Shown: piece after piece, positions 48,346 to 63,404 of the stretch | Layout of the letters: each line of letters begins with the position of its first letter | Position numbering within the stretch: the stretch's first letter is position 1 | From: Caldilineaceae bacterium | GTDB lineage: Bacteria; Chloroflexota; Anaerolineae; Caldilineales; Caldilineaceae | Assembly: GCA_020433455.1 (NCBI GenBank) | Contig: JAGRCP010000080.1 | Span: forward strand, 1 to 64,000 | Direction of reading: 5' to 3' | DNA: 64,000 nt | The notes under the pieces: model-generated | What the model was told of the DNA's origin: nothing | Seen by the model: the letters and a program-made list of their open reading frames with translations, nothing else | Database searches by the model: none | Position numbers and translations under genes: made by a program

Positions 48346-48415
48346 AAGATTGATAATTAAAGATTGGTTGATGGGGTCTCAAGACCCGGCAAACCAATCT
48401 TCAATCTTTAATCTT
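48346..48415. repeat. Palindromic element (family A, copy 1) in the sufD-rhodanese spacer
   Basis: The left arm is built of AAGATTG/AATTAAAGATTGG words. The right arm is CCAATCTTCAATCTTTAATC. The centre GGGTCTCAAGACCC is a perfect small hairpin. The two arms are about 33 bases each and mostly complementary. Confidence 0.65.
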
Positions 48416-48435
48416 CGCGCTTCTTCGGAGGAATA

Positions 48436-49300: not shown

Positions 49301-49330
49301 AAGATTGAAGATCGAAGATTAAGGATTGAG
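49301..49330. repeat. Half element of family A (copy 2)
   Basis: Contains AAGATTGAAGATCGAAGATT followed by AAGGATTGAG. It matches one arm of the family A palindromes and lacks the second arm; a family B element adjoins it. Confidence 0.55.
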
Positions 49331-60296: not shown

Positions 60297-60704
60297 CTAT
60301 TCTTCCTCGATTCCGCCTGCGGGCAAGTTAATCTCCTGCACCTCGCCCTGCTCATTAATGACGATCTGAAAGCCGAGCATCCCCAGCCATTGAAGCGCAT
60401 CCTGGGGAATGGGATTGCCCACCGCGTCCTCCATATTGTCGATGGAGCTTTCGATGGCGGCTTTGGTAAATATGTCGTCCTGCCCCAGCATGTCGAGCAT
60501 ACTGGTCACCGCCAGGTCGCGCTGGCCCTCGACCTGACCGCGCATAAAGCGCAGCACCTGGCGATCCACCATTTCTGCATCAATGTGGCGGTGAAAACCG
60601 TCATCATTCACCACGTAGCAGGCCCGATCGCCCACCTGGCTCACCTCTACGGCGTTGCCCCGTTCATCAATTACCAATCCGCTAAACATGGCGTTTTGCG
60701 TCAT
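60297..60704 (-). CDS. Small acidic protein of unknown function
   Basis: A 135-residue soluble protein without cysteine-rich or membrane motifs. It begins MTQNAMFSGLVIDERGNAVEVSQVG. It contains a helical region (DRQVLRFMRGQVEGQRDLAVTSML) and ends with the acidic EEE. It lies between the lipoprotein gene (convergent) and recD2 (same strand, 75 bases upstream). It could be co-transcribed with recD2. No function can be assigned. Confidence 0.65.
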   Translation of the reverse strand: MTQNAMFSGLVIDERGNAVEVSQVGDRACYVVNDDGFHRHIDAEMVDRQVLRFMRGQVEGQRDLAVTSMLDMLGQDDIFTKAAIESSIDNMEDAVGNPIPQDALQWLGMLGFQIVINEQGEVQEINLPAGGIEEE

Positions 60705-60727: not shown

Positions 60728-60767
60728 TGAAGATTAACGGTTGAAGATTGGGCCCCCGCGACCCGGC
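60728..60767. repeat. Half element of family A (copy 3) between recD2 and the small acidic protein gene
   Basis: Contains GAAGATTAACGGTTGAAGATTGGG followed by CCCCCGCGACCCGG (split for length). It matches one arm and the GACCCGG centre of the element at 48346. Confidence 0.5.
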
Positions 60768-60778
60768 CTCAGCGCGTC

Positions 60779-63196
60779 TCACATCATTGCCCGCAGCAGC
60801 CGTGCATCCAGCCCCGTGTGGCGGGCGGTAACCTTATCGTTGCCCACGGCGATGCGCATGGCGCGAGGCTGGCCAACCAGCACCACGAGTTGTCGGGCCC
60901 GGGTTACGGCCGTGTAGAGCAAATTGCGCTGGAGCAGCATGTAGTGGCTTGTCAGCACGGGAATGACCACCGCGGGAAACTCGCTGCCCTGGCTCTTGTG
61001 GACGCTTACAGCAAACGCATGGGTAAGCTCATCCAGTTCCAGAAAATCGTAGGCGATTTCCCGGCCGTCGATCTCGACGCGCAACTCCTGATCGATGGCG
61101 TTGACGGCGCGAATGACGCCCATGTCGCCGTTGTAGACTTCCTTGTCGTAATTATTGCGAATCTGCATAATCCGATCGCCGACGCGATAGACCCGGCTGC
61201 CGAAATGGCGCTCGGCCCGCTGTGCGGACGGCGGGTTCACCGTGGCCTGGATAGCCTCATTGAGCGCGCCCACGCCCGCTACGCCTCGGTGCATGGGGCT
61301 GAGGACCTGGATATCCTCCGGCCGGAAACCAAAGCGGCGGGGAATGCGCTCCTGTACCAACTCTACGCAAAGTTGGGCCGCGCGTTGCGGATCTTCGGTG
61401 CGAAACACGAAAAAATCCGTCGCCCCCTCATTGTCGATGATGGGCATCTCGCCCTTGTTAATCCGATGCGCGTTGGTGATGATGTAGCTCCCCGGCGCCT
61501 GGCGGAAGATGGTGTTGAGGCGAATGACGGCAGGTCGGTTATTGAAGATTGAGGATTGAAGATTGGTATCACCAGGACGCGTGAATTCTTTCTGCGTCCC
61601 CGCCTTCCAATCCTCGGTCTTCAATCTTTGCCCGTCAATCGCCCCCATCACGTCCCGCAGCACATTTCCCGCCCCCACGCTGGGCAGTTGATCCACATCC
61701 CCCACCAGGAGCAGGTGCATGCCCGGGGGGATGGCCTTGAGCAGGTGGTTGGTGAGGGCCAGGTCCAACATGGAGGCCTCATCCACAATGAGGAGATCCG
61801 CGTCCAGCGGCGACTCCTCATTGCGCTTGAAGCTCATCCCGTCCGCGGGCTTGAACTCCAGCAGGCGGTGGATGGTCTTGGCTTCGGCTTCGGTAGTCTC
61901 AGCCAGACGCTTGGCCGCGCGTCCCGTGGGCGCGGCCAGCAGCACCCGGTGACCGGCCTGGCGGCAGAATTGGAGAATGGTGCGCACAGTGGTCGTCTTA
62001 CCCGTACCCGGTCCGCCCGTCAGCACGGTGAGGGGATGGGTCAACGCCGTTTGAACGGCCACACGCTGTTGAGGAGCCAATTCCAGCCCATTGTTGCGCC
62101 CCGCGGTAAAGAAGGCCGCTTCCCAGTTAAACCGATTAGCGGCAAAGGTCGCGAGGCGGCTGGGGCCGGGTCGGGCCAGGCGGGCCAACTGGTTGGCCAC
62201 GCCCGTCTCACTGTAAAAGAGGGGCGTCAGATAAACATCCCGCTTCTCGCGCAGGAGCGCCTCAGCCGTGTGCATGGTATTGGGCGCATAGAGGGTTCCG
62301 GCTTCAGCCAGCAGGCGGGGCGTTTCTTCGGCCAGGGCCGGCGCGGGCGACGCCAGGGCTTCGCCGCCCGGCTCATCTACCAGCTTCACCTGATCCTCCC
62401 GCCACAGTTCCAGCAGGCCGATGCCAATCTGGCGTCGCTCTACAGCGAGCAGTTCCGCCGCCTGCCCAGCCAGTTCATCAATGGGAAGGAAAACGTGACC
62501 ATTATCGGTAGATTGATTCAGGGCGTAGGTGACGCCCGCGGCTACCCGCCGGGGCGAGTCAGGCGGAATGCCCAACGCCTGGGCAATTTTGTCCGCGGTC
62601 AGAAAGCCGATGCCGTAGATATCCCGGGCCAGGCGATAGGGATCGTCCTGAACGATACGGATGGCGTCATCACCGTAATATTTATAGATCTTCGTGGCGA
62701 GACCGGTGCTCACGTCGTGGCTCTGGAGGAAAATCATCACTTCCTTGATGGCCTGCTGTTCCGCCCAGGCCCGGGTAATCATCTGCACCCGCTTTTTGCC
62801 TACGCCGGGCACCTCGCTGAGGCGCGCCGGCGTCTGCTCGATGACTTCCAGCGTCTCCAGCCCAAAGTGCTTGACGATGCGCCTGGCCGTCACCGGGCCT
62901 ACGCCCTTGATGAGGCCGCTGCCCAGATACTTCTCCATTCCCGCGATGGTCGCGGGCAGGACGGTCCGCAGGGTCTCCACGGCAAACTGGCGGCCGTAGT
63001 CGCCGTGCACCGTCCAGCGCCCGTGCAGCTCCACGCTTTCGCCCACGTTGATGGAAGGCAGATTGCCCACGATGGTGATTTCGCCGTCCGAGGCGAACGC
63101 CCGTCGCCGCTCAGGCGCCAAGCGCGCGACGGTATAGCCGTTTTCTTCATTGTGGTAGGTGACGCGTTCGATCACGCCGCGCAGGGTATCGGTCAT
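60779..63196 (-). CDS. recD2: ATP-dependent RecD-like DNA helicase (RecD2) with an in-frame palindromic insert
   Basis: An 805-residue SF1B 5'-3' helicase. The N-terminal OB-like part starts LRGVIERVTYHNEENGYTVARL. Helix-hairpin-helix segments follow (YLGSGLIKGVGPVTARRIVKHFG). The helicase core has Walker A with Lys400 in GGPGTGKTTT, DEASMLD, GDVDQLPSVGAGNVLRDV, IFRQAPGSYI and the C-terminal VHKSQGSEFPAVV and YTAVTRARQLVVLVG. Between LRDVMGAIDG and AVIRLNTIFRQA lie about 30 extra residues (about 523-552) encoded by a palindromic repeat. The start at 63196 is supported by family alignment; the longer frame is non-conserved. Confidence 0.94.
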   Translation of the reverse strand: MTDTLRGVIERVTYHNEENGYTVARLAPERRRAFASDGEITIVGNLPSINVGESVELHGRWTVHGDYGRQFAVETLRTVLPATIAGMEKYLGSGLIKGVGPVTARRIVKHFGLETLEVIEQTPARLSEVPGVGKKRVQMITRAWAEQQAIKEVMIFLQSHDVSTGLATKIYKYYGDDAIRIVQDDPYRLARDIYGIGFLTADKIAQALGIPPDSPRRVAAGVTYALNQSTDNGHVFLPIDELAGQAAELLAVERRQIGIGLLELWREDQVKLVDEPGGEALASPAPALAEETPRLLAEAGTLYAPNTMHTAEALLREKRDVYLTPLFYSETGVANQLARLARPGPSRLATFAANRFNWEAAFFTAGRNNGLELAPQQRVAVQTALTHPLTVLTGGPGTGKTTTVRTILQFCRQAGHRVLLAAPTGRAAKRLAETTEAEAKTIHRLLEFKPADGMSFKRNEESPLDADLLIVDEASMLDLALTNHLLKAIPPGMHLLLVGDVDQLPSVGAGNVLRDVMGAIDGQRLKTEDWKAGTQKEFTRPGDTNLQSSIFNNRPAVIRLNTIFRQAPGSYIITNAHRINKGEMPIIDNEGATDFFVFRTEDPQRAAQLCVELVQERIPRRFGFRPEDIQVLSPMHRGVAGVGALNEAIQATVNPPSAQRAERHFGSRVYRVGDRIMQIRNNYDKEVYNGDMGVIRAVNAIDQELRVEIDGREIAYDFLELDELTHAFAVSVHKSQGSEFPAVVIPVLTSHYMLLQRNLLYTAVTRARQLVVLVGQPRAMRIAVGNDKVTARHTGLDARLLRAMM
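61541..61630. repeat. Palindromic element (family A, copy 4) inserted in frame in recD2
   Basis: The left arm ATTGAAGATTGAGGATTG and the right arm CAATCCTCGGTCTTCAATC are nearly reverse complements. The inner stem is GGACGC/GCGTCC. The 90-bp length is a multiple of three, so the reading frame continues through it. Confidence 0.78.
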
Positions 63197-63404
63197 GGGT
63201 GGTGGCGAGGTAGGAATAGAGTCCGCAGCATTGTACCACAACCGATGCCCGCCTGCTCCACGTAGGGAGCGAAGTTGCGGAGCGGCGGAGTAGCGGGGCG
63301 GGTGCATTGGGGGCGGGGACGGATTGTCTTGCCGGCGCGGATTCAGCAGGCGGCTCCACGTTTTGTCCGCCTCGAGTGCAAATAAATTGCTAAAACGCGG
63401 GGGA

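Follow-up and report, generated by a model that had tools for sequence, protein, structure and literature searches.

Cyanobacterial STRRs are degenerate heptad repeats, built on a unit of 7 nucleotides, that are dispersed, mostly intergenic and specific to a genus. The heptameric repeats of Xanthomonas (GGGAATC) and Nostoc (GGGGAYT) likewise have a degenerate, dispersed and genus-specific 7-nt unit and lie partly within genes; as described, they are G-rich, tandem and mostly intergenic, with quadruplex potential (PMC4692102). Palindromes that sit inside genes have been described in Rickettsia (Rickettsia palindromic elements (RPEs); Ogata 2000, 2002), with a counterpart in Wolbachia, as reviewed in PMC2229807 and PMC10969869. 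By the outline given in these reviews, RPEs are dispersed palindromes of about 100 bp, with several families per genome, that occur in frame in unrelated conserved genes, where the extra peptide is tolerated; for guanylate kinase, a carrier that was tested, both translation and activity are reported. Small miniature elements (MITEs) with open reading frames (ORFs), such as ERIC, Correia and RU-3, are short and base-paired, can produce in-frame ORF fusions, and have conserved termini and interiors, often with a TA duplication (PMC2229807). REP and REPIN sequences, with RAYT, are short, dispersed palindromes that occur in pairs (PMC3733652, PMC3116915).

Here we describe a 90-bp palindrome within the helicase gene recD2 of a Chloroflexota bacterium. 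It is very probably a member of a genome-wide family of heptad palindromes that inserted in an already extended, permissive loop of RecD2.

The RecD2 palindrome and its loop

The gene lies near the end of the window, the whole 64-kb stretch of DNA that we analysed, and has the following features.

60779-63307, minus strand: recD2 (SF1B helicase, YrrC/RecD2 family), an 842-aa ORF from the first ATG
61541-61630, minus strand: palindromic heptad-repeat element, in frame; 90 bp encoding residues 560-589 (QRLKTEDWKAGTQKEFTRPGDTNLQSSIFN)
61541-61566, plus strand: arm 1, degenerate (GATTGAA)n closing with GG; coding-strand reading NLQSSIFN; matches many other sites in the genome
61567-61606, no strand: spacer, the 40-base centre; no second genome match at E<=10
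61607-61628, minus strand: arm 2, degenerate (GATTGAA)n; coding-strand reading RLKTEDW

The product is RecD2, on the concordant evidence of its Pfam domains (HHH_RecD2, AAA_19, OB_YrrC, SH3_13 and UvrD_C_2) and of Foldseek, in which the top fold match of the ORF is the RecD2 structure 3GP8. Translation probably starts at MTDTLRG, about residue 38; numbered from there, the insert spans residues 523-552. Misassembly or a pseudogene might be suspected in a draft genome of 172 contigs, but the frame is unbroken across 842 aa with all motifs present, and the pattern is found again at many further, independent loci, as well as in other genomes, which makes an artefact scarcely credible.

The arms pair imperfectly: 61541-61558 is 89% complementary to 61608-61625, and 61545-61566 is 82% complementary to 61607-61628. 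The spacer contains an inner hairpin, GGACGC (61575-61580) with GCGTCC (61594-61599). As RNA, the 90 bp fold at -41.8 kcal/mol, compared with -23.9 +/- 3.2 kcal/mol in dinucleotide shuffles (z -5.6); as DNA, the corresponding z is -5.4. The initial annotation of an imperfect, in-frame and stop-free palindrome in recD2 is therefore borne out. An Rfam search of 61300-61900 matched no family, and we rejected a known structured RNA element on this result.

From GDxDQLP to xFRQ, the window's protein has 68 residues. Among the related loci retrieved, 30 readable RecD2s come from outside the family of the window's genome (other Chloroflexota, Clostridia, Poribacteria, Desulfobacteraceae, Prevotella and others), and every one of them has 35 residues in this segment. 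The excess of about 33 residues agrees with the roughly 30 extra residues first noted. The short loop that had been expected at this position is thus the rule outside the family, where the length is fixed, but not among the closest relatives: from VG to xFRQ, we count 54 residues in the window, 28-46 in same-family genomes and mostly 21 in same-class relatives. In every same-family genome read, the loop is longer than elsewhere, and its sequences are hypervariable and unrelated to one another and to that of the window. An alignment with close relatives, which had been proposed as a check, accordingly shows that the sequence is peculiar to this protein but that having a long loop is not. The family-wide length and hypervariability of the loop indicate that it was already permissive before the element entered it or grew there. 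On the Deinococcus radiodurans RecD2 (3E1S chain), the insertion maps to the interval between residues 327 and 336. The RecD2 of the nearest genome has about 72-74% protein identity and provides no DNA-level empty site, so insertion in one event is something that we infer. The sister genome G012 has 131 matches to the repeat, none of them in recD2.

An AlphaFold2 model built with 32 RecD2 sequences has a mean pLDDT of 84.4. With the N-terminal 37 residues set aside, pLDDT drops below 50 only at residues 567-587, and a helix at 549-569 extends into the insert. In the simplest reading of this model, the insert would be a disordered surface loop, in keeping with the tolerated loop proposed at the outset.

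A long loop in all same-family genomes, placed after motif III and near the helicase core, might instead have a function of its own, such as binding DNA or a partner, and be under selection, with the repeat words as mere raw material. Against such a role, the loop sequence is barely conserved between genera, its predicted state is disordered, and identical peptides occur in unrelated enzymes; we regard a selected function as very improbable.

A family of heptad arms with unrelated spacers

The arms of the RecD2 palindrome recur across the genome. With at most one mismatch, GATTGAAGATTG has 456 matches in the 5.25-Mb assembly, compared with 1 for the reversed control. Family arms are tandem heptads, with AAGATTG units that close with GG on one side and CC followed by CAATCTT units on the opposite side, and tandem GATTGAA arrays reach 8 units. 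A BLAST search of the genome with a 111-bp query recovered the arms at other sites and left the 40-base centre unique, ruling out the whole 90 bp as the repeated unit. In the initial annotation, occurrence of the 90-bp sequence nowhere else was to count against a dispersed element; this objection half applies, as the complete sequence is found nowhere else but its arms are widespread. The same words had also been recognized at three other places in the window:

48346-48418, no strand: palindromic heptad element of the same family (GAAGATTGATAATTAAAGATTGG ... CCAATCTTCAATCTTTAATCTTC), in no long ORF
49301-49330, plus strand: single degenerate heptad arm; partner arm not seen nearby
60728-60751, plus strand: single degenerate heptad arm, between recD2 and the next ORF (60297-60704)

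All three are variants of the heptad repeat seen in recD2 and none is an exact copy; a clear partner arm is present only at 48346.

Genes were called from open frames and family matches, and counts combine searches with a 1.11-Mb sample (L091-L150) drawn from contigs that carry matches. In 30 of 30 distinct paired elements, an AAGATTG arm is followed by a CAATCTT arm, never the reverse. These elements are 51-139 bp long, from outermost word to outermost word, and fold with a mean z of -6.1 relative to shuffles. Their spacers range from 14 to 109 bp and share no motif, enrichment being limited to degenerate arm words; the number of heptads per arm is variable. Alone, the spacers fold slightly better than shuffles (mean z -0.9). 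Two arms of one element are no more alike than two taken from separate elements (permutation p 0.98 raw, 0.83 normalised), which leaves fold-back copying, with arms templated on each other, unsupported.

A classical non-autonomous transposon of the MITE or RPE type would be one master whose copies, made by a transposase acting in trans, occasionally land in frame. Palindromic form, dispersal, a length of about 50-140 bp and in-frame positions in conserved genes, as in RPEs (PMC2229807), are what such a transposon predicts, but the spacers are unrelated beyond the repeat words, the arms differ in heptad number and those of one element are not specially matched. The conserved terminal inverted repeats and parent-IS interior of MITEs are likewise missing from these elements. 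Of two Y1_Tnp matches in the genome, the second (L262) is weak and the clear one is an IS200-type TnpA gene (L261:1470-1908) with no heptads in its 3.3 kb, which lends no support to spread driven by IS200 or RAYT from this gene. The elements also differ from REP and REPIN sequences in their heptad arms and coding locations, as well as in the lack of a heptad-flanked Y1 transposase gene at L261. We consider copying of a transposon unlikely. The 'mobile or proliferating' element of the initial annotation is accordingly retained as a proliferating repeat, whereas its mobility finds neither a link to a transposase nor a shared spacer.

Slippage of simple sequence could expand chance heptad seeds locally in a flexible loop, with no DNA from elsewhere. 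Arm copy number does vary, tandem runs do reach 8 heptads, and the similar heptad repeats of Xanthomonas and Nostoc are also found within genes (PMC4692102). Slippage does not, however, generate arms that are inverted and keep a single order in 30 of 30 pairs, each with a new spacer of 14-109 bp, nor does it put the same heptad at many unlinked loci, and we judge it quite unlikely as the sole source. Constant arms around ever-new spacers are explained by neither the copying of one master nor pure slippage. The comparison with STRR-type repeats is similar: GATTGAA forms dispersed tandem arrays of a 7-nt unit, but STRR-type arrays are direct tandems only, without the fixed inverted pairing seen here. 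Unlike the Xanthomonas and Nostoc heptamers, those of the window's genome are not G-rich, form inverted pairs and contribute coding sequence to many housekeeping proteins.

The exact 19-mer GATTGAAGATTGAAGATTG occurs once, in 1 of 300 other genomes of the phylum (all outside the window's family). Genomes within the family differ in its frequency: G000 and G012 have it in abundance, G011, G013 and G009 in moderate numbers, and the others hardly at all. Two further short repeats are dispersed in the 1.11-Mb sample: the octad GGGAGATT (GATTGGGAGATT 48 times, reversed 0) and the heptad GGCAGGT (GCAGGTGGCAGG 37 times, reversed 1).

Reading frames and carrier genes

In the 1.11-Mb sample, 33 elements measure 14 bp or more, and 11 of these lie in frame within protein genes; carriers were selected by an open frame, so the count covers intact ones. 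The sample contains 164 of the 456 short GATTGAAGATTG matches; by scaling, the genome would therefore hold ~90 such elements, ~30 of them genic. Together with further stretches, genic elements total 22.

The two arms differ in how they can be translated. The pyrimidine arm, (CAATCTT)n, encodes NLQSSIF and is stop-free in all frames because 7 mod 3 = 1. The purine arm, (AAGATTG)n, meets TGA in each frame within 21 bases unless there is a closing GG or a base change, and its open phase encodes RLKIEDW or RLKIG. Genic purine arms encode RLKTEDW in RecD2 and KIEDQRLKIG, KIEDLRLKIG or KIEELRLKIG elsewhere; the longer ones have CAA, TTA or similar in place of the expected TGA. The argument is circular in part, as an open frame was the criterion for recognizing carriers; for comparison, 7 of 15 paired elements without a gene assignment have no open frame on either strand.

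Carriers with good family support include TrpF (PRAI), RarA/MgsA (NF009881), a DUF2079 protein, a B12-binding radical SAM protein and a heavy-metal CopA-type P-type ATPase. In Mfd, the TIGR00580 match continues uninterrupted through the insert; PurL and a DEAH-box helicase carry two in-frame inserts each; and in a fused glycyl-tRNA synthetase the repeat sits in the alpha-beta linker.

Several carriers have an unusual layout. The glycyl-tRNA synthetase alpha and beta subunits form a single ORF (L135:7086-10820, minus strand), with part of the linker encoded by the repeat. The DEAH-box helicase ORF (L266:645-3542, minus strand) has an HNH match and an MrfA-type zinc-binding domain beside its two inserts. 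A 737-aa membrane-protein-like ORF (L127:1581-3791, minus strand) contains a composite in-frame insert of GGCAGGT, GGGAGATT and GATTGAA repeats in succession, and three heptad-type inserts occur in a 1026-aa membrane protein ORF (L115:8048-11125, minus strand) with an ILEI-like domain (PF15711) at its C terminus.

The Rickettsia-like situation first proposed, a palindromic repeat in frame in a conserved helicase, is thus upheld and extends to many other genes. As in RPEs, so far as the reviews outline them, the elements form long stem-loop palindromes, belong to one of several families in the genome and occupy several unrelated conserved genes (for example, TrpF, Mfd, RarA and PurL). RPE copies, by the same outline, are one unit with a conserved peptide, whereas the elements described here share heptad arms only, with unrelated spacers, and cannot be aligned over their whole length. 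The host also differs: it belongs to a Chloroflexota lineage with a 5-Mb genome, whose genera each carry a repeat of their own and in which insertions recur in the same loops. On this comparison, the heptad elements appear to work like RPEs, yet they fall outside the RPE definition because the copies lack a shared whole unit. In the literature searched, we found no description of elements of this kind in Chloroflexota, which is weak evidence of absence.

The same loops in other genera

The RecD2 loop is encoded by a different short repeat, the genome's own, in at least two other genera. In G004, it is encoded by CATCGTC heptads, which have 267 matches in that genome and 0 in 8 others, and one copy (C253:7513-7531) falls inside recD2. 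In G011, it is encoded by GGGAGACA octads, with 40 matches in that genome, two of them in recD2, and 0 in 8 others. G006 is a weaker, intermediate case (CGCAGAGG octads; 13 genome matches, one in recD2). G018 and G023 also have repetitive-looking loops, but neither genome contains many further copies of the words concerned, too weak a basis for a claim, and we dropped own-genome repeat families as the source of these two loops. The word of the G023 loop is abundant in G020 instead. The GGAGCGTT octad has 234 matches in G020.

TrpF presents a second example. In the window's genome, about 45 residues are added to the barrel of this enzyme at a single site in the alpha2-beta3 loop. In the alignment to 1DL3, this site lies between residues 50 and 48, and we place it behind the helix whose end is close to residue 50. 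In G012, the corresponding TrpF loop likewise holds a heptad palindrome; in G004, it holds a palindrome of different words (GGAGACC/GGTCTCC).

Under uniform placement, we estimate the chance of hitting a 100-bp loop at the order of 0.003 or less per genome; the recurrence therefore reflects tolerance of the loop, preference for loops, or both. As the repeats of other genera appear to fill the same loops independently, the RecD2 and TrpF loops would be permissive landing sites and not sites specific to the GATTGAA repeat.

These observations are compatible with the following course of events. The palindrome would have entered recD2 behind helicase motif III, where the loop was already extended; its phase was open and its length a multiple of three, and it would be tolerated because the loop is disordered and distant from the conserved motifs. 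In other genera, the RecD2 and TrpF loops may have been filled independently by the repeats of those genomes. As to the origin of the repeats themselves, we tentatively raise the possibility that some process writes genus-specific heptad or octad palindromes with fresh spacers, for which the coding loops of RecD2 and TrpF are repeated landing sites.

For annotation, the recurring peptides RLKIEDW and NLQSSIFNLQSS should be read as translated repeats and not as domains. In-frame genic palindromes are known chiefly from Rickettsia and Wolbachia, which are intracellular and have small genomes, and the same outcome is seen here in a Chloroflexota lineage with a 5-Mb genome. Independent recurrence in several genera provides natural replicates with which to ask which protein loops accept insertions of DNA and by what route short repeats that lack a known transposase are dispersed. 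If the proposed process is real, protein loops in this family would have been extended repeatedly by intergenic repeats, through neither MITE copy-and-paste nor plain slippage.
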